DNA of 20,071 bases, from the NCBI GenBank assembly GCA_026397575.1, contig JAPLUP010000469.1, positions 1-20,071 of the forward strand, read 5' to 3'. Shown piece after piece: positions 1 through 16,360 of the stretch (position 1 is the stretch's first letter; every line of letters starts with the position of its first letter). The DNA comes from Candidatus Zixiibacteriota bacterium. Its GTDB lineage: Bacteria > Zixibacteria > MSB-5A5 > CAIYYT01. The notes under the pieces are model-generated. The model made no database searches. It was not told the DNA's origin and saw only the letters and a list, made by a program, of their open reading frames with translations. Made by a program: the position numbers and the translations under genes.

Positions 1-1245
1 AGATCGAAGTACAATCGTTGCCGACAGGTCTTGAACCGTCTTGTTCGTCTCGATGAAGACACTTCATCCACGTCGCTACTGGCCGATACCTATTCGCTGC
101 TCGGTGAGTTATCGCGAAGAACCGGCCGATTGCCCGAAGCTCGGTCGGCGGGCAAACGCGCGGTGGAGTTGGCGCATTCAAGTCACAACTGTTGCGTTGA
201 GTCAGACGCCTACAATGGCCTCGGGCTGGCCTATTGGGTTGGCGGTATGCTGGCGGAAGCACGCGATTGCTTCGTTAAGAGCCTGAAGCTTCAGGAAGGC
301 AACGGCTCCATGTATGCCGAGGCCAGGGTTGCCAACAATCTGGCGATTATAGCCGGGGATATGGGTGACTATGTGGAAGCGCGTCGCCTGGCCGGTAAGG
401 CCAAAGAAGTTTTCATTGAACTTGGAGACCGTCGCAATCAGGCTTATGAGAGCGGCAATCTAGCGAGTTTATTAGTTGGCGGCGGCCATTATCGCGAGGC
501 AATTGAGTTGTACAATTCTGCCGATCGAATCTTCATCAAACTGGGTGAGACGCATCCGCACTATTATACGGTCGGGAATCTTGGTGATCTTAATCTGCTT
601 CTGGGCGAGTTCGATGATGCCGATAGTAGGTACGTGGAAGTGGCGAAATTCGCTCGCGAAAGCGGTGATCAAGAGTTGGAGGCGGAAATGTGCGTGCGCT
701 TCGCTGAACTCGCCTACTATCGCCAGCAACGGGACGAGGCGAGGAAGCTCTACGAGACTGCCATTCAGAAAGCGGAAGCGGTTGGCTCACTTGAATTCAG
801 GGTCAGAGGAACTATTGGGCTTTGCCGCTATTTGATCGGCGAACGAAACGCGCAGGAAGCTGGGCAAGCAATCGATCGGTTAGTCAAATTCGCGCAAGAG
901 TCCAAGTCAGATCGCACCCGGTATGAAGCCGAATTCCTGACCGGGGAGATGTTGCGCATCATGGGGCAGTCGGCATCGGCCTTGCCGCACTACCGTGAAT
1001 GCGCCGCCTACGCCTCCCGACAGCGACAATTCGAGTTGGCGCTGAAGTGCTATGTCCGCCTCTATGAGACAAACCCTGATTCAAGGGCCGAAACGGCAAA
1101 CAATCTCAAGGTTCTGCTTGATGACTTCCTCTCGACAAACGGCGAACAGATATTCCAGAGACTGATGAATTCCCGCTATTTCCAGTTCTTCCACGAGACA
1201 ATGATGCAGATTGCCGGAACCACACCTGTGGGATTGATCCGGTAA
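1..1245 (+). CDS. Tetratricopeptide-repeat (TPR) protein, 5' end cut by window edge
   Basis: The frame is open from the first base to a TAA at 1243-1245 with no upstream stop, so the gene starts outside the window; the TTG at 31 is only the first in-window start-like codon. The roughly 414 visible residues are helical repeats of about 40 residues with TPR signatures, for example SDAYNGLGLAYWVGGMLAEA, VANNLAIIAGDMGDYVEARR and AYESGNLASLLVGGGHYREA. The 40-residue period and Leu-Gly-Tyr spacing resemble the long TPR arrays at the C-termini of bacterial kinases, adenylate cyclases and transcription regulators. No catalytic or DNA-binding domain is visible because the N-terminus is missing. The last 50 residues (FLSTNGEQIFQRLMNSRYFQFF) are not repeat-like. 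The repeats should mediate protein-protein contacts; the partner is unknown. A sigma-54 promoter region starts right after the stop, so this gene is probably not cotranscribed with the lipoproteins downstream. Confidence 0.8.
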   Translation, partial: RSKYNRCRQVLNRLVRLDEDTSSTSLLADTYSLLGELSRRTGRLPEARSAGKRAVELAHSSHNCCVESDAYNGLGLAYWVGGMLAEARDCFVKSLKLQEGNGSMYAEARVANNLAIIAGDMGDYVEARRLAGKAKEVFIELGDRRNQAYESGNLASLLVGGGHYREAIELYNSADRIFIKLGETHPHYYTVGNLGDLNLLLGEFDDADSRYVEVAKFARESGDQELEAEMCVRFAELAYYRQQRDEARKLYETAIQKAEAVGSLEFRVRGTIGLCRYLIGERNAQEAGQAIDRLVKFAQESKSDRTRYEAEFLTGEMLRIMGQSASALPHYRECAAYASRQRQFELALKCYVRLYETNPDSRAETANNLKVLLDDFLSTNGEQIFQRLMNSRYFQFFHETMMQIAGTTPVGLIR

Positions 1246-1249
1246 ACAC

Positions 1250-1262
1250 TTGTCCAAATCCC
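1250..1262 (+). promoter_or_regulatory. Conserved upstream box, copy 1 (possible enhancer-binding site)
   Basis: TTGTCCAAATCCC lies exactly 140 nt before the sigma-54 core at 1390. The same 13-mer occurs at the same distance before the second lipoprotein gene. A GTTCAAAA box follows 37 nt downstream of it in both copies (here 1287-1294). The fixed spacing suggests binding of a sigma-54 activator, but no family is assigned and the box is not clearly palindromic. Confidence 0.4.
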
Positions 1263-1389
1263 CCAGTTTTCACCGAAATTCGACCTGTTCAAAAGCAGTG
1301 CGCAAGAACTGCACAAATCAGATGACTGTAACTGTCTGAATTCCAAGTACTTGAAAGGTGTTCCGGAAAATGTCACAGGATGAAACAGT

Positions 1390-1406
1390 TTGGCAGCCTC
1401 CTTGCA
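1390..1406 (+). promoter_or_regulatory. Sigma-54 (RpoN) -24/-12 promoter of lipoprotein copy 1
   Basis: TTGGCAGCCTCCTTGCA fits the sigma-54 consensus TGGCAC-N5-TTGCW at 15 of the defining positions that matter: GG at -24, GC at -12 and 16-nt total spacing from TGGCA to TTGCA. Only the C after TGGCA is replaced by G. It is embedded in a stretch (GATGAAACAGTTTGGCAGCC and flanks) that is identical before the second copy, while the sequence on either side has diverged. Expected transcription start is about 12 nt downstream, leaving a leader of roughly 60 nt to the start codon at 1478. Confidence 0.72.
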
Positions 1407-1477
1407 ACAGTAGTCGCCGAAGAACAAAGGTGCTTTGTCACTAGGAGGCCCGAAGGGGCCGAAAGGAGGATAGTTTG

Positions 1478-2038
1478 ATGAGTAGTAAACGGTACGTTTC
1501 GATTTTGGCGGTGCTGTTCGCTATCTCCATTTCCTTGGCGTTTGTTGGGGGATGTACGTCAAATGCTGTCGCGCCAAACGATAGTCTCATTCAGAGCAAA
1601 CTGGACTGGATGAACGAATTCTTCTCGCCTAACGGGGCGCAACAGGGACCCGGGCTGGGCGAGTGCCCTGTCCTGTTCGACACTGTGGTTACCGAGCAGG
1701 TCAATAGTTCCAAGGACGAGTTCAAAATCGTATTCGGCAAGGAAGAAATCGCATTCAGCCTTCCCAAAGATGCCTTGTCGAGCGCGGCCACACTGGCTGT
1801 TCACGCTACGAAGTATCAGGCGCCGTTTGGCTCTTTTTGGCTGCTTGACTGCGGACCGAATGGCACCGTTTTTGCCAAACCGCTGGAAGTAACTCCTAAC
1901 CAGGAAGTAACTGAGAGCAACTCCCCAGTCCTCTACTATTTCAATCCAGCCACAGGATTGTGGGAGGTGGAGCAGATCACTGCTTCCAGCAACTCGAATC
2001 TGCTGATTAACCATTTCTCCATGTACGGGATATCATAG
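1478..2038 (+). CDS. ZU5-like lipoprotein, tandem copy 1
   Basis: The product is 186 residues. The ATG at 1478 is chosen because GGAGG (1465-1469) sits 8 nt upstream; a TTG directly before it is possible. Residues 1-25 are a lipoprotein signal peptide with lipobox VGGC and acylated Cys26, so the mature protein should be anchored in an envelope membrane. The mature part begins with SNAVAP, then KLDWMNEFF, and ends in a block resembling ZU5-type beta-sandwich domains: FSLPKDALSSAATLAV, then CGPNGTVFAKPLEV, LYYFNPATGLWEVE and a final INHFSMYGIS. That series (proline-alanine-leucine strand, PxGxxFxxP, YY-W, HFS-Y) is the ZU5 pattern. The protein occurs as a neighbouring paralogue at 2373-2951, and both have two matching Cys (in CPVLFDT and LDCGPNG) that could pair. 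Function is unknown; sigma-54 control suggests an inducible envelope response. Confidence 0.8.
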   Translation: MSSKRYVSILAVLFAISISLAFVGGCTSNAVAPNDSLIQSKLDWMNEFFSPNGAQQGPGLGECPVLFDTVVTEQVNSSKDEFKIVFGKEEIAFSLPKDALSSAATLAVHATKYQAPFGSFWLLDCGPNGTVFAKPLEVTPNQEVTESNSPVLYYFNPATGLWEVEQITASSNSNLLINHFSMYGIS

Positions 2039-2072
2039 CAACTTACCGGAGGGACTGACCGATTGACTAATG

Positions 2073-2102
2073 GCCCCGGGCGTTTTCGTCCGGGGCTTTT
2101 TT
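2073..2102 (+). terminator. Intrinsic terminator of lipoprotein copy 1
   Basis: A 10-bp stem (2073-2082 with 2087-2096, one G-U pair) closes a TTTT loop and is followed by six T. The core CCCCGGGCG-TTTT-CG recurs after copy 2. Confidence 0.92.
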
Positions 2103-2148
2103 GTTTTGCCCACAACCGGAAGAGCCATTGGTTTCTCACCACAGAGTG

Positions 2149-2161
2149 TTGTCCAAATCCC
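2149..2161 (+). promoter_or_regulatory. Conserved upstream box, copy 2
   Basis: TTGTCCAAATCCC again, exactly 140 nt before the second sigma-54 core; GTTCAAAA follows at 2186-2193 with the same 37-nt offset as in copy 1. Confidence 0.4.
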
Positions 2162-2288
2162 TTAATTTTTCCCGGAAAAATCAGTGTTCAAAACGGCTGT
2201 TCAGGAATCGACCACAGAACGCCCGCGTAAGGCGCTCTGTATCAACGCGTTATTTTGAGTACAAGGGATTGTTGCCGGATGAAACAGT

Positions 2289-2305
2289 TTGGCAGCCACT
2301 TTGCA
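2289..2305 (+). promoter_or_regulatory. Sigma-54 -24/-12 promoter of lipoprotein copy 2
   Basis: TTGGCAGCCACTTTGCA has the same GG/GC spacing as copy 1 and the same preceding GGATGAAACAGT. The variable N5 spacer differs at two positions while the -24 and -12 elements are unchanged, which is the pattern expected of selected promoter elements. Confidence 0.72.
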
Positions 2306-2372
2306 ACACTCCTGACAGAATTGATTGGTCGTTGACCGCCACAGGGTCTGCAAGAACCCGGAAGGAGGAAAT

Positions 2373-2951
2373 TTGAAGATATCACCGTTTCGTACTTGGT
2401 TCATTGCGACGTTAATGGTTGTATTGGCCGTATCTGAGTCCTTGGCAATTGGAGGGTGTACATCCAACGCCGTCGCTCCGGAAAACGGAAATCCGAATCA
2501 GGACAAACTTGATTGGTTGAATCAGTTTTTCAATGGTGGCGGTGCCGATCGCGGACCCGGAATCAACATCGACGGCTGCCCGGTCCTTTTTGACACCACT
2601 CTGATTCAGACAGTAACTAAGTGGGGGGCCCAGATTGACATGGTGCATGGTGTGGAGAAGATCGGATTTTCGTTACCGTATATGGCGGTGACGCAGTCGG
2701 TCACTCTCAAGATCCGTGTTACGAAGTATCAGGCGCCATTTGGTGAGTTCTGGATGCTGGACTGTAGTCCCAATGGCCAGACTTTCGACTTCCCGCTCTA
2801 TTGCCAGCCCAATCAGCATATCTTGAACTCTTCCACCGCGGTGCTCTTCTACTACAATCCCACCACCAAGCTGTGGGAGGTTCAGGCGACAGTGAGGGGC
2901 TCGAACCCGCAGTTGCCGATCTATCACTTTTCGAAGTATGGAATATCGTAG
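2373..2951 (+). CDS. ZU5-like lipoprotein, tandem copy 2
   Basis: The product is 192 residues from a TTG at 2373 preceded by AAGGAGG (2362-2368). An earlier in-frame TTG at 2325 would put the Shine-Dalgarno inside the gene and extend the signal peptide unnaturally, so it was not used. Signal peptide residues 1-28 end in lipobox IGGC (Cys29). Similarity to copy 1 runs over the whole mature part: CTSNAVAP, KLDW-NQFF, CPVLFDT, GFSLP, TKYQAPFGEFW, LDCSPNG, FYYNPTTKLWEV and YHFSKYGIS. Best-kept segments are TKYQAPFG-FW-LDC and the C-terminal ZU5-like end; the region after CPVLFDT has diverged most. Copy 2 carries its own promoter and terminator, so it is a separate transcription unit. The role is unknown. 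Confidence 0.78.
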   Translation: MKISPFRTWFIATLMVVLAVSESLAIGGCTSNAVAPENGNPNQDKLDWLNQFFNGGGADRGPGINIDGCPVLFDTTLIQTVTKWGAQIDMVHGVEKIGFSLPYMAVTQSVTLKIRVTKYQAPFGEFWMLDCSPNGQTFDFPLYCQPNQHILNSSTAVLFYYNPTTKLWEVQATVRGSNPQLPIYHFSKYGIS

Positions 2952-2985
2952 TCCTTAGCTGGAGGGATTGACTCACTGACTTATG

Positions 2986-3015
2986 GCCCCGGGCGTTTTC
3001 GCCCGGGGTTTTTTT
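2986..3015 (+). terminator. Intrinsic terminator of lipoprotein copy 2
   Basis: A perfect 9-bp GC stem (2987-2995 with 3000-3008) closes a TTTT loop and is followed by seven T. It differs from the copy 1 terminator mainly by C for T in the 3' arm, which replaces a G-U pair with G-C. Confidence 0.92.
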
Positions 3016-3039
3016 GTTATTGGTGACGCCCTTAAACAG

Positions 3040-3200
3040 TTCTGCCAGCACGAATGAGCGATCATAGGTTTCCGCGTTGCGGAGCGCCCAAATGAATTCG
3101 GACTTACAGAGGTGGCAGCCGGTGAAAATCTCCGCTATGCCGCCGTAGAAGATTCCCATCGCCAGAAGTATCGTGTCCAGCGGTTGAATCGGGTGTTGTC
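3040..3200 (-). pseudogene. Decayed fragment of a GPR1/FUN34/YaaH (SatP-type) acetate transporter
   Basis: The minus strand encodes PLDTILLAMGIFYGGIAEIF, followed by TGCHLCKSEFIWALRNAETY and DRSFVLAEL. The first part closely matches the second membrane helix of the acetate/succinate transporter family (ILAMGIFYGGIAQIFAG in E. coli SatP, recalled from family knowledge). The second part still aligns without gaps to the KKGNTFG...SYGSFWL segment, but key residues are lost. The N-terminal NPAPLGL signature is absent from the DNA upstream, and the frame runs on into unrelated sequence overlapping the terminator and lipoprotein gene. Only about 50 of roughly 190 residues survive. I read it as a gene remnant next to other recombination scars. 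Chance similarity is unlikely for the MGIFYGGIAEIF run but cannot be excluded without a search. Confidence 0.5.
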
Positions 3201-3375: not shown

Positions 3376-3642
3376 ATGGAAAGCGTGTCATATCACGTTT
3401 ACATCCTACGCTGCGGTGACGGCACCTACTATACCGGCCAGACTACCGATCTCGACAAGAGAGTCATAGCTCACAATCACGGTACCGGCGCCCGCTATAC
3501 GCGCGGACGCGGACCAGTGCAACTGGTATATCATGTCGGAGTTGCGACTTTGAGGGAGGCATTCATCTTGGAGCGCAGAATTAAGCGCATGCCGCGTGCC
3601 GGGAAAGAGAAGTTGATTGCCAACGTTCAGACCGAATACTAA
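3376..3642 (+). CDS. GIY-YIG endonuclease domain protein (UPF0213/YhbQ-like)
   Basis: The 88-residue product is a single GIY-YIG domain, the usual size for stand-alone members related to the UvrC N-terminal nuclease. Visible motifs are VYI (residues 8-10, the GIY position), YTG (19-21, the YIG position), Arg29, the ARYTRGRGP loop (39-47) and Glu66 in LERRIKRMPR, which is the metal-binding glutamate position. All expected catalytic residues appear present. These proteins act as small structure-specific or nicking nucleases whose cellular role is poorly defined. No convincing Shine-Dalgarno precedes the ATG. The gene sits alone between a transporter remnant and a recombinase remnant, so it may have arrived with mobile DNA. 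Confidence 0.85.
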   Translation: MESVSYHVYILRCGDGTYYTGQTTDLDKRVIAHNHGTGARYTRGRGPVQLVYHVGVATLREAFILERRIKRMPRAGKEKLIANVQTEY

Positions 3643-4628: not shown

Positions 4629-5243
4629 TCAGGGATTTCTACCTACCCAACTCCAGGTCCGTGCTTGACCACTGGGTTCGGGGGGAAGAATCGTCTCAAC
4701 ATGAACTTGACAAGATCTGAATAGCGGTGTCGGTAACCGTTTAAGGTTGACATCGAAGAAACTGAGTGGCTGTCTCCAAGAGTCAAAGGTATTGAGAACG
4801 AATGTCGTTTCCGGCGCATTGCCATATACCCGCAGATGGATCGTTGCAAGCAAACCTCGGCCCGGCTCAACAGAAATCGTGTCGTCAATCACGCCGAAAA
4901 CTCCGATCAGGATCGTGTCCCCATCCGCGTAAACCATCTTGAAATCGAAATGATCGACCCGGCTGCCATGGAACGATACCGAATCAAAATGAATGATGTT
5001 CGAGGGGAAAAGCAGTGGGACATTTACTTGCGTCAGCGCCACCTCGTTGTCAAACGAGACGGGCACGCTAAAGCTCTGCCCTCCCTTGGCCTCCAGTTGC
5101 TCCGGCAGGTAGATTTGATTGATAAGCGGCTCAGGCTCGGTGCTTTTGCTGCAACCCACCAGTGCCAGGGTCAGCGCCATAGACACCAAGCACAAATAGC
5201 CAAACAGCCGCAGTGTCCTCATGTCACTCGAAAAAAGCATCAT
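4629..5243 (-). CDS. Lipoprotein with cohesin-like domain, paralogue 1
   Basis: The 204-residue product starts at tandem ATGs (5243 or 5240); an internal ATG at 5222 is also workable. The tandem-ATG start is kept because the paralogue at 6749-7327 begins the same way, with a shared CTATT element just upstream. The signal peptide ends in lipobox LVGC (Cys31), followed by SKSTEPEP. The mature part (about residues 42-165) resembles a cohesin-type beta-sandwich: IYLPEQLEAKGGQSFSVPVS, FDNEVALTQVNVPLLFPSNI, then a DSVSFHGSRV strand and GRGLLATIHLRV. This resembles the pattern of cohesin or cohesin-like domains (GD.F.VPV..., L.FDP..L, G.LAT..F.V). The C-terminal 20 residues are not shared with the paralogue and may be a short extension from a lost stop. 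It is probably surface-exposed and binds another protein; the ligand is unknown. Confidence 0.75.
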   Translation of the reverse strand: MMLFSSDMRTLRLFGYLCLVSMALTLALVGCSKSTEPEPLINQIYLPEQLEAKGGQSFSVPVSFDNEVALTQVNVPLLFPSNIIHFDSVSFHGSRVDHFDFKMVYADGDTILIGVFGVIDDTISVEPGRGLLATIHLRVYGNAPETTFVLNTFDSWRQPLSFFDVNLKRLPTPLFRSCQVHVETILPPEPSGQARTWSWVGRNP

Positions 5244-6539: not shown

Positions 6540-6748
6540 GATTCCTCTTACTGGTGACGTGTAACAGTGATTCGATTGATCCGCATAAGATGCGGAGTTC
6601 AAGTTTCCTATTCGCTAGCCCGCTTTCGCTCTCAACAGCCATGCCAACCCCTCACCAAAGATAGTCGAATGTAACCAAAATGCAACTATTCCAAATTCAA
6701 GTCAATCACAAATACGATGTCGTACTGCCTCCCCAGCAGCGCCACAAC

Positions 6749-7327
6749 TCAGTTTGGTTCACCATCGCCACCCTCTTTGGACGTCTGCCCATTGATATGA
6801 ACGGTACAGGCCTTGAACTGTGGTGGATTGGCCACGGGGTTCAATTGAAGGTCGAAGAAACTAAACGGCAGGAACGGGTAGTCGAATGTGTTCAGCAGAA
6901 ATGTCGTATCCGGTGCGGTCGGGCCAACCGTAAAATAGATCGTGGCGAGCAGACCGCGACCGGTCGCAACTGCGGCAGAATCGTCAATGACACCGATCGC
7001 AAGCGTGTCGGCTTTGGCAAGAACATTTTTGAACATAAATTGATCGGCGCGGCTGTCGCGGAAGGAGACCGAATCTAAACGCAGGATTGAGGAGGGAAAC
7101 AACATCGGCACGTTGATTGCGGACAGAGAGACTTCGTTATCGAAGTTGACCGGCACCGTAAAAAACTCTCCGGTCGCAACCTCAATCTTTTCGGGCAAGT
7201 AGACGCGGTTGGTAATCGTTTCCGGCTCGCTGCTCTTGCTGCACCCGACAATTCCAGCGCCTATTAGAAAAAACAGTGTGACGAAAACGCCGCCAAATCG
7301 CAAAATCTGAACTCTGCTCCACATCAT
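6749..7327 (-). CDS. Lipoprotein with cohesin-like domain, paralogue 2
   Basis: The 192-residue product starts at tandem ATGs (7327, 7324), as in paralogue 1. Signal peptide with lipobox IVGC (Cys29), then SKSSEPE. The mature sequence parallels the 4629-5243 product throughout: YLPEKIEVATGEFFTVPVNF, DNEVSLSAINVPMLFPSSIL, LDSVSFRDSRADQFMFKNV, IGVIDDS, GRGLLATIYFTVG, then PDTTFLLNTFDYPFLPFSFF. The repeated beta-strand pattern and the G-GLLAT-F block support a cohesin-like fold. Paralogue 2 ends soon after HINGQ, showing that the longer tail of paralogue 1 is not conserved. It is divergently placed from the flavodiiron gene. No dockerin ligand has been shown; the binding role is inferred from fold resemblance only. 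Confidence 0.77.
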   Translation of the reverse strand: MMWSRVQILRFGGVFVTLFFLIGAGIVGCSKSSEPETITNRVYLPEKIEVATGEFFTVPVNFDNEVSLSAINVPMLFPSSILRLDSVSFRDSRADQFMFKNVLAKADTLAIGVIDDSAAVATGRGLLATIYFTVGPTAPDTTFLLNTFDYPFLPFSFFDLQLNPVANPPQFKACTVHINGQTSKEGGDGEPN

Positions 7328-7467: not shown

Positions 7468-7489
7468 ACGCAGCTTGAGTGGAGGATAT

Positions 7490-8686
7490 ATGAATTCTGT
7501 TGAATTGACCAGGAGAGTTTTCTGGGTGGGGGCGGCAGACCCCGATTTGCGTGTATTCGATATCGTCGTTAAGACGGATTACGGAACAACCTACAATTCC
7601 TATCTGCTCTTGGGAGAAAAGGTAGCTCTGATCGATGCGGTCAAAGAGGGTTTCGAGAATCTTTTCTTCGCCCGCATTGAAGAACACGTGCCCCTGGAAC
7701 GGATCGACTATCTGATCGTCAATCACACCGAACCTGACCACTCCGGTGCGACCAAGCTACTCCTGGCACGCAACCCCAAGATCAAGCTCGTCTGCTCCAA
7801 ACCGGCGGTGCCGTTCTTAAAGAACATCGTCAACGACGAATCAGTGGCGATCGACGGTGTCAAAGGGGGCGACCGTCTCGATCTGGGAGGGCTATCACTC
7901 GAGTTTATCTCGGCTCCATTTATGCACTGGCCGGATACTATGTTTACCTATTGCCCTGAAGAGAAGATTCTCTTCCCGTGCGACGGGTATGCGGCACATT
8001 TCGCCCCCTATGAATCAATCTTCTCCAAAGCGGGGGACAAAGTGCATGAGAAGGAGGCATGGCACTACTATGACGCGATCATGCGCCCGTATGCGTCCTT
8101 CTGCCGCAAGGCATCGCAGGCCGTGATTGGCATGGATATTGATATCGTTGCGCCATCGCATGGGCCAATCAACCGCGACGAACCGAAGCATTTCATCGAG
8201 AAATATCTGGAATGGACAGCCCCAAAGCCAAGTGGCGACAAAAAGCGCGTCCTAATTGCTTTTGCCAGCTCTTATGGAAATACCAGAATGATGGCGCAGG
8301 AGATCGACCAGGCGCTCCAGCAGGCCGGTATGGCAACCACAATGGTGGACTTGGCTCATATTCAGGCGAAGGAGTTGCGCGATCATTATGAGGCGGCTGA
8401 CGCGATTCTCTTTGGTACACCGACTTTCGTTGGCGATGTGGTCAAGCCGGTGTGGGATGCCGCGCAACTTCTGATGACCGTTTCGAGCGTTGGCAAGAAG
8501 GCTGCCGTGTTCGGTTCCTATGGTTGGGGAGGGCAAGCGGTGGACATACTGGAATCATACCTTGAAAGCCTTAAGCTCAAAGTGCACAAGCCCGGCGTGA
8601 AGGCAAGACTGGTTCCATCGCCGACGGAATTGGAAGAATGCAGACGTTTTGCTGAGGCGTTCAGTGGATTTGTGCAGCAGGGATAG
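7490..8686 (+). CDS. Class A flavodiiron protein (oxygen/NO reductase)
   Basis: The product is 398 residues from the ATG at 7490 with GGAGG four bases before it; the open frame reaches back to 7358 but that part lies in the promoter. Residues 1-245 are a metallo-beta-lactamase-like domain with every diiron ligand: His79, Glu81, Asp83 in NHTEPDHSG, His146 in APFMHWPDTMFTY, Asp165 in FPCDGYAAH and His224 in PSHGP. Residues 252-398 are a flavodoxin domain with the FMN phosphate loop ASSYGNT (259-265). There is no C-terminal rubredoxin or flavin reductase extension, so it is class A and needs an external rubredoxin-like donor. These cytoplasmic enzymes reduce O2 to water or NO to N2O and protect anaerobes. 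It has its own promoter and appears monocistronic. Confidence 0.95.
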   Translation: MNSVELTRRVFWVGAADPDLRVFDIVVKTDYGTTYNSYLLLGEKVALIDAVKEGFENLFFARIEEHVPLERIDYLIVNHTEPDHSGATKLLLARNPKIKLVCSKPAVPFLKNIVNDESVAIDGVKGGDRLDLGGLSLEFISAPFMHWPDTMFTYCPEEKILFPCDGYAAHFAPYESIFSKAGDKVHEKEAWHYYDAIMRPYASFCRKASQAVIGMDIDIVAPSHGPINRDEPKHFIEKYLEWTAPKPSGDKKRVLIAFASSYGNTRMMAQEIDQALQQAGMATTMVDLAHIQAKELRDHYEAADAILFGTPTFVGDVVKPVWDAAQLLMTVSSVGKKAAVFGSYGWGGQAVDILESYLESLKLKVHKPGVKARLVPSPTELEECRRFAEAFSGFVQQG

Positions 8687-8784
8687 GGCATGCTTTCTGC
8701 TAAAGCACAAACAAGAATGAACCGATACTCTATCATGTATGTTGGCTGGCGCCTGTACTGAAAGTTCTGAGGATGAAAAAGCGC

Positions 8785-8812
8785 TTGACAGAGCCTGAGA
8801 AAAGATTATGCT
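8785..8812 (+). promoter_or_regulatory. Sigma-70-type promoter, probably for the RRM gene
   Basis: Perfect TTGACA (8785-8790), a 16-nt spacer and TATGCT (8807-8812, four of six). It is the best promoter match upstream of the RRM gene on this strand. Confidence 0.45.
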
Positions 8813-8824
8813 TACGGATATGCT

Positions 8825-8858
8825 GACAGCGGGAAGCGCTGCCAAGATTGTTTGTTTT
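8825..8858 (+). terminator. Possible attenuator hairpin just after the promoter
   Basis: GACAGCG (8825-8831) pairs with CGCTGCC (8837-8843) with one mismatch around GGAAG, followed after five bases by a T-rich run. It would lie at the very 5' end of the leader, so it could be an attenuator or simply mRNA structure. Confidence 0.3.
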
Positions 8859-14573: not shown

Positions 14574-14659
14574 AGCGCCAGAGAGGCATATACTCTTTGG
14601 TCGTAGTAACAGCCTCGCTGAGGTTTTTCAACAGTCCCGATAGCAGGGGAGGAATCAAC

Positions 14660-16360
14660 ATGAACAAGATAATTAGGGCGGCAGTGATATTTCAATTCCT
14701 GAGCCTTTTCACATTTCCGATTGCCGCACAGGAATCACCAGAGATAGTCAAAGGGACTGTCGATCTGGTTCTGAGAGCAAACGTTACCATAACCCATCAC
14801 CCAACATCGATCGAAACGGGCTATCCGTCATTTGACTCTTTGTTGACTCGATTTGGTGTCACTTCTATGACTCCCGCTTTCGATTTGCCGGTCAAAGCCG
14901 AACATCTGGCGGTCTTCTATCGACTCAATATGGATGAGCACTGGGTTGTTCACTTCCCTGATTCCATCAGCGTTCACACGACCGCGACCGGTTTTGCTCT
15001 TGATGGCTTGGTGGAGAGTGCCGAACCGATCTCGTACGGCGTAGCTACCCTACTCCCCATTGACGCTGGATTCCACAGACAGTGGTATCATAATCAGCCA
15101 AACGGAGTCGACATCAACTCTCCCCAAGGGTGGGACTATGACACTTCGGCTGCGGGCGTCCTTGTGGCAGTCCTCGACGAAGGGATCGATTCGCTGCACC
15201 GGGAGCTGAACCGGAACCTCTGGATAAACGCGGCCGAGACTCTGGCTACCCACGGAGACCCCGGCACGCACCAATTCGTACCGGATGGCATCGATGATGA
15301 CGGTAACGGCAAAGCAGATGACTTTTACGGGTGGGACTTCAGCGGTGCCGGTGACGCTGACCCGAAGCCGGATTACTACGACAACCCGCCCTGCACCCAA
15401 ACAGACCTCGATAAAATGAATCATGGGACGAGGGTCGCGGGTGTGTTGATGGCGCAGAACAGTTTATGGCTCACCGATGGCAACGACATGGTGGGAGTAA
15501 TGTGGTACGGTTCTGTTCTCAATGTGAAAGTGACGAACCCAGGTGGTGTGACAAACCCGGACAAGTATGCTGCTGCAATCCAGTACGCGGCTCAAACCGG
15601 CGCGAAAGTAATCAGTATGAGCTTCGCCTTCCCTTACCCGGGGTCGAACTTGGGAACCGCCGTCCAGTATGCCGACCAATTGGGCTCCGTCCAGGTGGCC
15701 GGAGTGCCTAATCCTGGTCAGGACGGCGAGTATCCCTGGAAATACCCTCAGGTGATTGGGGTCTACCGGATAGATGCGAACGGTCAGAATGAGCCGCACC
15801 CGATCTACCGGTTGGACACAACATGTGTCGTTGCCCCGGGATTTAACATTTACACAACGGACGCTTTGGTGCCAGGACGGGGTTGGCCCGACACTCTATG
15901 TGAGGAGTTCGTTGGCGCCGACTACTCCTACCTGACTGGAACTTCCCTGGCAACGCCTATTGTTGCCGGAGTAGCCGCGATGATGATCGCGCATCGAAAG
16001 CAGCTATTTGGCAGTCTCGGCGAAATCACACCGGCGCTGGCAAGGGAGATTGTTTGGTGGACTACTGACGATTACGGTCCTCCGGGCTTCGATAGTCTGT
16101 ACGGCCGTGGCAAGGTTAATTTGCAAAAGGCGATGCTGGTTGTGGGACATGGTGACGTCAACAACGATCATTCCCTTGACATCAATGATCCAGTCTACCT
16201 GATCAACTACATCTTCAATGGTGGGCCTCCACCACAGCCCCAAGTTATGGTAGGTGATTCTAACTGTGACGGCGAGATAGACATCTCCGATGTCGTCTAT
16301 TTACTCAACTATGTATTCGAGGTAGGAGCTCCACCACCTATCTGCTTCCAAGGCCCGTAG
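14660..16360 (+). CDS. Secreted subtilisin-family (S8) peptidase with dockerin repeats
   Basis: The product is 566 residues from the ATG at 14660, with GGGGAGG seven bases upstream; the frame extends back to 14597 without a ribosome-binding site. Signal peptide residues 1-23 end in IAA-QE. A propeptide-like region (about 30-145) precedes the S8 domain. The triad is Asp173 in VAVLDEGID, His255 in NHGTRVAGVL and Ser429 in GTSLATPIVAG; Asn351 in VAGVPNPG is the likely oxyanion residue. DEG instead of the usual D[ST]G, and PN instead of GN, are unusual. A DDDGNGKADD loop (212-221) may bind calcium. Residues 498-519 (GDVNNDHSLDINDPVYLINY) and 532-553 (GDSNCDGEIDISDVVYLLNY) are two dockerin-type calcium-binding repeats. 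Dockerins bind cohesins, and cohesin-like lipoproteins are encoded nearby. Confidence 0.92.
   Translation: MNKIIRAAVIFQFLSLFTFPIAAQESPEIVKGTVDLVLRANVTITHHPTSIETGYPSFDSLLTRFGVTSMTPAFDLPVKAEHLAVFYRLNMDEHWVVHFPDSISVHTTATGFALDGLVESAEPISYGVATLLPIDAGFHRQWYHNQPNGVDINSPQGWDYDTSAAGVLVAVLDEGIDSLHRELNRNLWINAAETLATHGDPGTHQFVPDGIDDDGNGKADDFYGWDFSGAGDADPKPDYYDNPPCTQTDLDKMNHGTRVAGVLMAQNSLWLTDGNDMVGVMWYGSVLNVKVTNPGGVTNPDKYAAAIQYAAQTGAKVISMSFAFPYPGSNLGTAVQYADQLGSVQVAGVPNPGQDGEYPWKYPQVIGVYRIDANGQNEPHPIYRLDTTCVVAPGFNIYTTDALVPGRGWPDTLCEEFVGADYSYLTGTSLATPIVAGVAAMMIAHRKQLFGSLGEITPALAREIVWWTTDDYGPPGFDSLYGRGKVNLQKAMLVVGHGDVNNDHSLDINDPVYLINYIFNGGPPPQPQVMVGDSNCDGEIDISDVVYLLNYVFEVGAPPPICFQGP

Follow-up and report, generated by a model that had tools for sequence, protein, structure and literature searches.

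A probable sigma-54 promoter with a clade-fixed upstream control region precedes members of a lipoprotein family in Zixibacteria

Two tandem lipoprotein genes of a Candidatus Zixiibacteriota bacterium are each preceded by a -24/-12 promoter element and by upstream elements, namely a 17-bp dyad, a distal palindrome (E1) and an IHF-like site, that recur before related lipoprotein genes at distances fixed within clades. In the genomes searched, strong matches to models of these promoters fell at this one lipoprotein family, and the window's genome carries rpoN together with many genes for enhancer-binding proteins. We consider it likely that each gene forms its own sigma-54 unit, controlled by an activator bound at a fixed place, and that copies of the gene took the control region with them. 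A classical sigma-54 regulon reserved for one lipoprotein family would explain these data most simply, and this regulon, served by a classical mechanism, is apparently undescribed.

Results

Two lipoprotein genes and their promoters

The window, that is, the whole stretch of 20,071 nucleotides analysed here (contig JAPLUP010000469.1 of assembly GCA_026397575.1), is contig C10 of genome G000, which comprises 3.09 Mb in 719 contigs. Left of gene A lies the end of a cyclase-AAA-TPR gene, and the window begins at the contig end (Table 1). Genes A and B are tandem paralogs with 52% protein identity, each followed by a nearly identical terminator-like hairpin, and their products, judged by a signal peptide and a GGC lipobox, are lipoproteins. 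Neither protein had a Pfam match. The top Foldseek matches of the predicted structure (mean pLDDT 79.7) were ZU5 domains (E of about 4e-3, probability 1.00, TM-score of about 0.4), with no match below E 1e-3; these weak matches suggest that the domain may have a ZU5-like beta fold.

Table 1. Features of the window around lipoprotein genes A and B
Feature	Position	Strand	Remarks
C-terminal 404 aa (TPR region) of cyclase-AAA-TPR protein	31..1245	+	cut by contig start
E1-like palindrome TGTGGGATTGATCCGGTA	1227..1244	+	13/16; overlaps TPR gene end; offset -164 from -24
Usual E1 place of gene A	1248..1265	+	contains box 1250-1262; E1 score 8/16
TGTTCA of gene A	1286..1291	+	105 nt before -24
17-bp dyad of gene A, TGCGCAAGAACTGCACA	1299..1315	+	9/12 positions; inverted repeat; candidate enhancer-binding-protein site
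IHF-like stretch of gene A, TTCCAAGTACTTGAAA	1341..1356	+	8/9, minus strand match
-24/-12 element of gene A, TGGCAGCCTCCTTGCA	1391..1406	+	zero mismatches to TGGCAG-N5-TTGCA
Lipoprotein gene A	1478..2038	+	start ATG 1478 or TTG 1475
Terminator-like hairpin 3' of gene A	2072..2097	+	
E1 place of gene B	2147..2164	+	contains box 2149-2161; E1 score 10/16
TGTTCA of gene B	2185..2190	+	105 nt before -24
17-bp dyad of gene B, TGTTCAGGAATCGACCA	2198..2214	+	10/12 positions; candidate enhancer-binding-protein site
IHF-like site of gene B, TATCAACGCGTTA	2240..2252	+	9/9 consensus positions
-24/-12 element of gene B, TGGCAGCCACTTTGCA	2290..2305	+	zero mismatches to TGGCAG-N5-TTGCA
Lipoprotein gene B	2373..2951	+	start TTG; predicted ZU5-like beta domain
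Terminator-like hairpin 3' of gene B	2985..3010	+	

A preliminary description of this DNA had reported that both genes are preceded by TGGCAG-N5-TTGCA and, at equal distance, by the same 13-nt box, and the comparison of the two regions confirmed this. A -24/-12 element of the GG-N10-GC type stands 5' of both genes, and these two elements are the sole zero-mismatch matches to the full pattern in the window. The box, TTGTCCAAATCCC, has exactly two exact copies in the window, while five further matches carry 2-3 mismatches, which is the chance level. Measured start to start, box and promoter are 141 nt apart in both copies (the 140 nt given earlier reflects a counting convention), and GTTCAAAA begins at +37 from the box in both (starts 1287 and 2186). 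The stretch between the box and -24 shows 46% ungapped identity and no gaps, much as had been described (about half, without net indels), and the identical block at the promoter, GGATGAAACAGTTTGGCAGCC, is longer than had been noticed.

Genome-wide, the 13-mer has 2 exact copies in G000, both in the window, and 66 copies with at most 2 mismatches against 35 for a reversed control; the box alone is uninformative in such a scan. Likewise, 5 exact copies of the -24/-12 pattern were counted, two of them in the window, and 68 with at most one mismatch against 40 for its control. These exact and relaxed counts revealed that the motifs are singly unspecific and that their combination is specific.

Several other features of the window were recorded. 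Short stem-loops lie just 5' of the Shine-Dalgarno sequences of A and B (1447-1460 and 2344-2359), and close relatives share them with altered sequence; folding z-scores of 39 leaders (mean -0.45) did not support 5'-UTR hairpins as a general trait. Another look-alike pair of lipoproteins (GCSKSxEPE) is encoded on the minus strand at 4629-5243 and 6749-7327, one of which gave a sub-threshold cohesin-domain match. The protein at 14597-16360 ends in what we take to be dockerin-like repeats, and the small ORF 3376-3642 resembles a GIY-YIG family protein.

Upstream elements and enhancer-binding proteins

Profile A4 of the lipoprotein family had matches in 65 of the 132 genomes of the phylum, and the family stands partly in tandem arrays, for example of six genes in G026 and of five in G027. 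From a best-first choice among these matches, 48 loci were fetched and 71 members taken, one of which was dropped for too little upstream DNA, leaving 70. Statistics on the upstream elements were based on 43 promoters, comprising those of 41 members with a -24/-12 site 20-125 nt upstream and the window's two.

The dyad and E1 consensus sequences were read by eye from the same promoters, which makes their scores partly circular: the dyad TGTTCA-N5-TGAACA reached at least 9/12 in 23 of the 43 promoters (Markov-resampled mean 3.6, largest 11 in 200 runs), and the palindrome E1, TATGGGAT-N2-ATCCCATA, which lies distal to the dyad, had a mean best score of 11.2/16 (resampled mean 8.8, largest 9.2 in 100 runs). 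The dyad mostly keeps one place per family, at -92/-93 in f1, -88 to -90 in f19 and -87 in f5. Over all promoters, the mean dyad score peaks at -108, -87 and -21; in f5 the peak at -87 is accompanied by another 21 bp further out, at -108, and by a third dyad-like peak at -21 that abuts -24. The right half of E1 starts at -136/-137 in 11 of the 15 promoters of L203-L206 and L215, at -132/-133 in 4/8 f1 promoters, at -123 to -126 in 6/8 f19 promoters and at -103 in both f16 promoters. The usual E1 place scores 8/16 in G001, as in gene A, and 10/16 in gene B, and gene A (13) and G001 (14) each have a better copy that lies 21 bp more distally and overlaps the TPR gene at its end. The box, which occupies the usual E1 place, is probably a decayed form of E1.

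In the window's family, the best IHF-like match had a mean of 7.5/9, compared with 6.4 after resampling, and none of 300 runs scored as high. This match lies at -50 in 4/8 promoters of the family and is perfect in gene B and G001, while the site had no significance in f5, f19 or f15. The IHF consensus used is supported by PMC7962754. The f5 promoters of L203-L206 have in addition a conserved block of the TGTGGGTTTTTCATCCA type that spans about -21 to -3 and abuts -24, and f1 promoters carry TGAAACA at this place.

The sigma-54 assignment itself was supported by rpoN, which is present in G000, in 120 of the 132 phylum genomes and in 78/78 near-complete ones; it was not found in G004, which is 77% complete. 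Enhancer-binding proteins are numerous. PF00158 matched 12 times in G000, and each of 15 other genomes had 14-28 matches, for an overall total of 326. Seven of the ten strongest G000 proteins carry a receiver domain (one receiver is partial, and one protein has its HTH end cut off), three have TPR or GAF regions, and HTH_8 was found in 9/10. The L1 loop reads GAFTGA or GSFTGA in 3/8 recognised G000 proteins, the remainder having variants such as GAFTDA or GAFTSA and, once, GVATGV. The 1422-aa frame at L093:2741-7009 (G000:C700), in which GVATGV replaces GAFTGA, contains TPR, GAF, sigma-54 activator and HTH_8 domains in the part examined.

The preliminary description had also pointed to a dedicated activator, and the gene neighbourhoods did not show one. 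A search by tblastn with the ten G000 proteins over the 48 loci and the window, which recovered 3/3 controls and was used in place of an earlier motif scan that had recovered 2/8, found an enhancer-binding-protein gene adjoining a lipoprotein gene in 1/49 sources, L202 of G042, where the lipoprotein is a distant family member in a different gene context. A receiver-sized match was found in L212. In this L202 region (7469-8845 and 6661-7209) the enhancer-binding-protein gene, at 7469-8845, stands directly 5' of a lipoprotein gene with a -24/-12 site, and TPR and TPR-HD-GYP-like genes follow; it may serve as a lead to the activator.

Rather than an enhancer-binding protein, other factors such as a cyclic-nucleotide receptor, a repressor or a global regulator might bind the dyad and E1, with the activator site elsewhere or absent. 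Two unlike palindromes and the third f5 peak at -21 suggest more than one protein, and cyclic-nucleotide signalling genes adjoin the lipoproteins in part of the loci. However, the size of the dyad, its N5 gap and its position are typical for the Fis-type DNA-binding domains of sigma-54 activators, and the frequency of HTH_8 among the G000 proteins also argues against this alternative, which we regard as rather unlikely.

Occurrence of -24/-12 sites in the lipoprotein family

With a site defined as GG-N10-GC scoring at least 4/6 at 40-125 nt upstream, and with control starts set mechanically, a -24/-12 site was found 5' of 39/70 family members and of 7/365 other ORFs of the same loci. Outside the window's order, 33/63 members have a site. 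Together with strong matches of the promoter models described below, these counts upheld the earlier proposal that a lipoprotein family is the target. The simple scan found no site in 31/70 members, including L090 of G002 and all 11 members examined in f17, although the f17 genomes do have rpoN; the f17 loci are L185, L187, L190, L193, L194, L195, L208, L217 and L219. Members without a site are what would be expected if the -24/-12 look-alikes were fortuitous and another promoter were used, but the difference between members and other ORFs, the presence of rpoN in G000 and the fact that the lone sigma-70-like match in 1200-3100 falls inside the end of gene A make this explanation very improbable.

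We similarly weighed whether the conserved stretch might belong to an RNA or to the upstream gene and be no control region at all. The box of gene A starts 4 nt past the TPR gene's stop codon, and the end of this gene is overlapped by the better palindrome, as this explanation would have it. Gene B, however, has the same elements 3' of a terminator-like hairpin, and at L079/L077 TGTTCA, dyad and promoter are present without an adjoining TPR gene, so that we give this possibility very little credence.

Conservation of the control region in related genomes

A profile of the A and B proteins matched 5/5 genomes of the order, in which seven promoters of this type were found in four genomes of two genera (two promoters each in G000, G002 and G003 and one in G001). 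TGTTCA lies 105 nt before -24 in 6/7 of them and 106 nt in the remaining one (L081), and the distance from -24 to the start codon is 80-89 nt, counting gene A from ATG 1478. The spacing noticed in the window is thus kept in related species. It is fixed within clades only. An off-by-one control pattern (98 N vs 99 N) gave 34 matches in 30/132 genomes. The site of the G004 copy, CGGTAAACATCTTGCT, is weaker, and TGCTCA lies at 108 there; the paralog L084/L090 of G002 lacks the promoter, though it belongs to the window's own family.

Among six ungapped promoters, mean pairwise identity was highest at the -24/-12 block (0.75), followed by TGTTCA with the dyad and the stretch from E1 to TGTTCA (0.62 each), the IHF-like stretch (0.57) and the box (0.55), and it was 0.42 in the two spacers. 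The 13-mer, which had been put forward as the constant part, did not prove to be so: in G001, of the same genus, it reads TCGTCCATATCCC, with two changes, and the G002 and G003 promoters, in the second genus, showed none even when 3 mismatches were allowed, (A/T)TCC alone remaining. The box itself is therefore absent from loci that keep their promoters, as the preliminary description had named as evidence against its proposal, whereas TGTTCA at 105 nt and the 17-bp dyad are kept, so the wider idea of a conserved upstream control region survives.

From these comparisons, the likeness of the promoters is more than a duplication. That the upstream likeness is a functionless remnant of tandem duplication is hardly credible: the two genes are indeed tandem paralogs, but TGTTCA, dyad and -24/-12 recur at unchanged distances in other species, a second genus included, at loci of G001, G002 and G003, while the spacers have fallen to an average identity of 42%. 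On the evidence given for each, a duplication remnant, an RNA element and chance -24/-12 sites were considered and rejected.

The first lipoprotein of G001 (L092, G001:C20) shows 64% protein identity to A and 49% to B, whereas its promoter (-106 to -14) shares 84% of positions with that of B (window 2184-2310) and 46% with that of A. A gene A-like protein with a B-like promoter suggests that recombination between paralogs may have occurred.

Specificity of promoter models

A sequence-only model of eight promoters, R1, was run over the 132 phylum genomes with strict filters. In the order's 5 genomes it gave 8 matches at E<=1, which are its training promoters and nothing else. Weak matches (E<=1) were obtained in 54 further genomes; the best outside the order, in G109 (E 7e-5), had no lipoprotein link established, and one in G131 (E 8e-4) precedes a family lipoprotein. 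Over 40 loci, R1 matched L222 and, weakly, a few places in L213, L203 and L201.

A second model, R2, was built from 14 f5 promoters (one of the 15 in A5, from L215, was omitted for a run of N) and run over 15 genomes. It gave 18 matches at E<1e-9, every one within the lipoprotein arrays of G022 and G024-G027; four were outside the training set, and the next matches in these genomes had E of at least 0.05. R2 also recognised the G004 promoter (E 3e-5). Its matches in G000 and G001 were weak and away from lipoproteins, and there were none in G002, G003, G023, G028, G039, G062 and G063; because R2 missed all seven promoters of G000-G003, we conclude that the models transfer poorly between families. 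Among 42 other sources, it matched only L089 and, weakly, three further places, of which one (L214) is before a lipoprotein gene. In the models' own genomes searched, strong matches are confined to the lipoprotein family.

A neighbouring cyclase, kinase and DUF3307 gene

The full-length counterpart of the TPR protein in G001, of the same genus, has 1350 aa (L092:789-4841) and contains cyclase, AAA_16 and TPR domains, and its best solved-structure matches were to the human soluble adenylyl cyclase ADCY10 (E 1e-28). The first cyclase domain aligns at FADTSGFTA and GDILKFSGDA, the second at VNLAARLM. Among 14 cyclase proteins tried, with hits defined by these patterns, both catalytic motif sets were recognised in 10 and the first only in one (L214), while 3 were not recovered. 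On the 5' side of the G001 cyclase gene are a DUF3307 gene and one for a histidine kinase with cNMP_binding, PAS, HisKA and HATPase domains. The set of kinase, DUF3307 and cyclase-AAA-TPR genes was found beside lipoproteins in 14/48 loci, from 14 genomes; the lipoproteins are downstream on the same strand in 11/14 and face the cyclase in L189, L211 and L212. By pattern, 6/13 kinases tried had a recognisable cyclic-nucleotide phosphate-binding motif.

Gene order and domains together would allow a cassette in which the cyclase makes cAMP, the kinase senses it through its cyclic-nucleotide-binding domain and phosphorylates a receiver-type activator, and the sigma-54 lipoprotein array is thereby switched on. 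We put this chain forward tentatively, as possible but doubtful.

Discussion

We propose that genes A and B are separate transcription units, each with an RpoN promoter. An AAA+ enhancer-binding protein would most likely bind the dyad TGnnCA-N5-TGnnCA about 90 nt before -24; in the window's family, an IHF-like site between dyad and promoter would bend the DNA, and the activator would remodel the closed complex at -24/-12. The distal palindrome E1 may be the site of a second protein of the same control region, and this region, including its spacing, would have been copied with the gene into tandem arrays. The assignment of proteins to individual elements, like the role of cyclase and kinase as the source of the signal, is inferred.

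This arrangement resembles promoters of the NtrC/glnAp2 type in its GG-N10-GC element, its upstream 17-bp dyad with an N5 gap and, in the window's family, its IHF-like site, and an AAA+ activator would be expected here too. The NtrC consensus is TGCACC-N5-GGTGCA, and some glnAp2-type promoters have an IHF site. The window's half-sites are TGTTCA/TGAACA instead of TGCACC/GGTGCA, and a search with the NtrC consensus gave 3 window matches with 3 mismatches, below chance, none at these promoters. In further contrast to the NtrC/glnAp2 type, there is an extra distal palindrome, the distance is frozen within clades and matches are confined to one lipoprotein family.

The cyclase shares with ADCY10 two cyclase domains with complementary motifs followed by an ATPase and TPR region, an architecture taken from relatives, the window's own copy being truncated. 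Unlike ADCY10, it is bacterial and partly clustered with the kinase and lipoproteins. The predicted lipoprotein domain appears similar in fold to the ZU5 domains of ankyrin and ZO-1, but it has 10-13% identity to them, is Pfam-negative and comes with a lipobox.

Lipoprotein genes are among the sigma-54 associations in the survey of general tendencies by Francke et al. (2011; PMC3162934), where neither the phylum nor the regulon is named in abstract or outline. The open-licence PMC literature contained nothing on Zixibacteria with sigma-54, RpoN or adenylate cyclase, and the combination of Zixibacteria, lipoprotein and promoter led there to a match that, by its title, concerns Dictyoglomus. Among the literature matches listed, no title or abstract beginning describes the regulon, and those listed in one broad literature set make no mention of Zixiibacteriota.

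For Zixibacteria, a little-studied phylum, these results provide a readable regulon with its promoter architecture, its target family and possible signalling partners, all read from sequence. Spacing that is kept while the spacer drifts amounts to a natural mutagenesis of sigma-54 enhancer geometry. In addition, the recurring combination of a cyclase akin to the human bicarbonate sensor, a cyclic-nucleotide-binding kinase and sigma-54 lipoproteins offers a testable bacterial cAMP route. If true, cAMP would control genes here by way of a phosphorelay and sigma-54 rather than CRP, and the signalling cassette would be self-contained, serving an array of ZU5-like surface lipoproteins that can be expanded.
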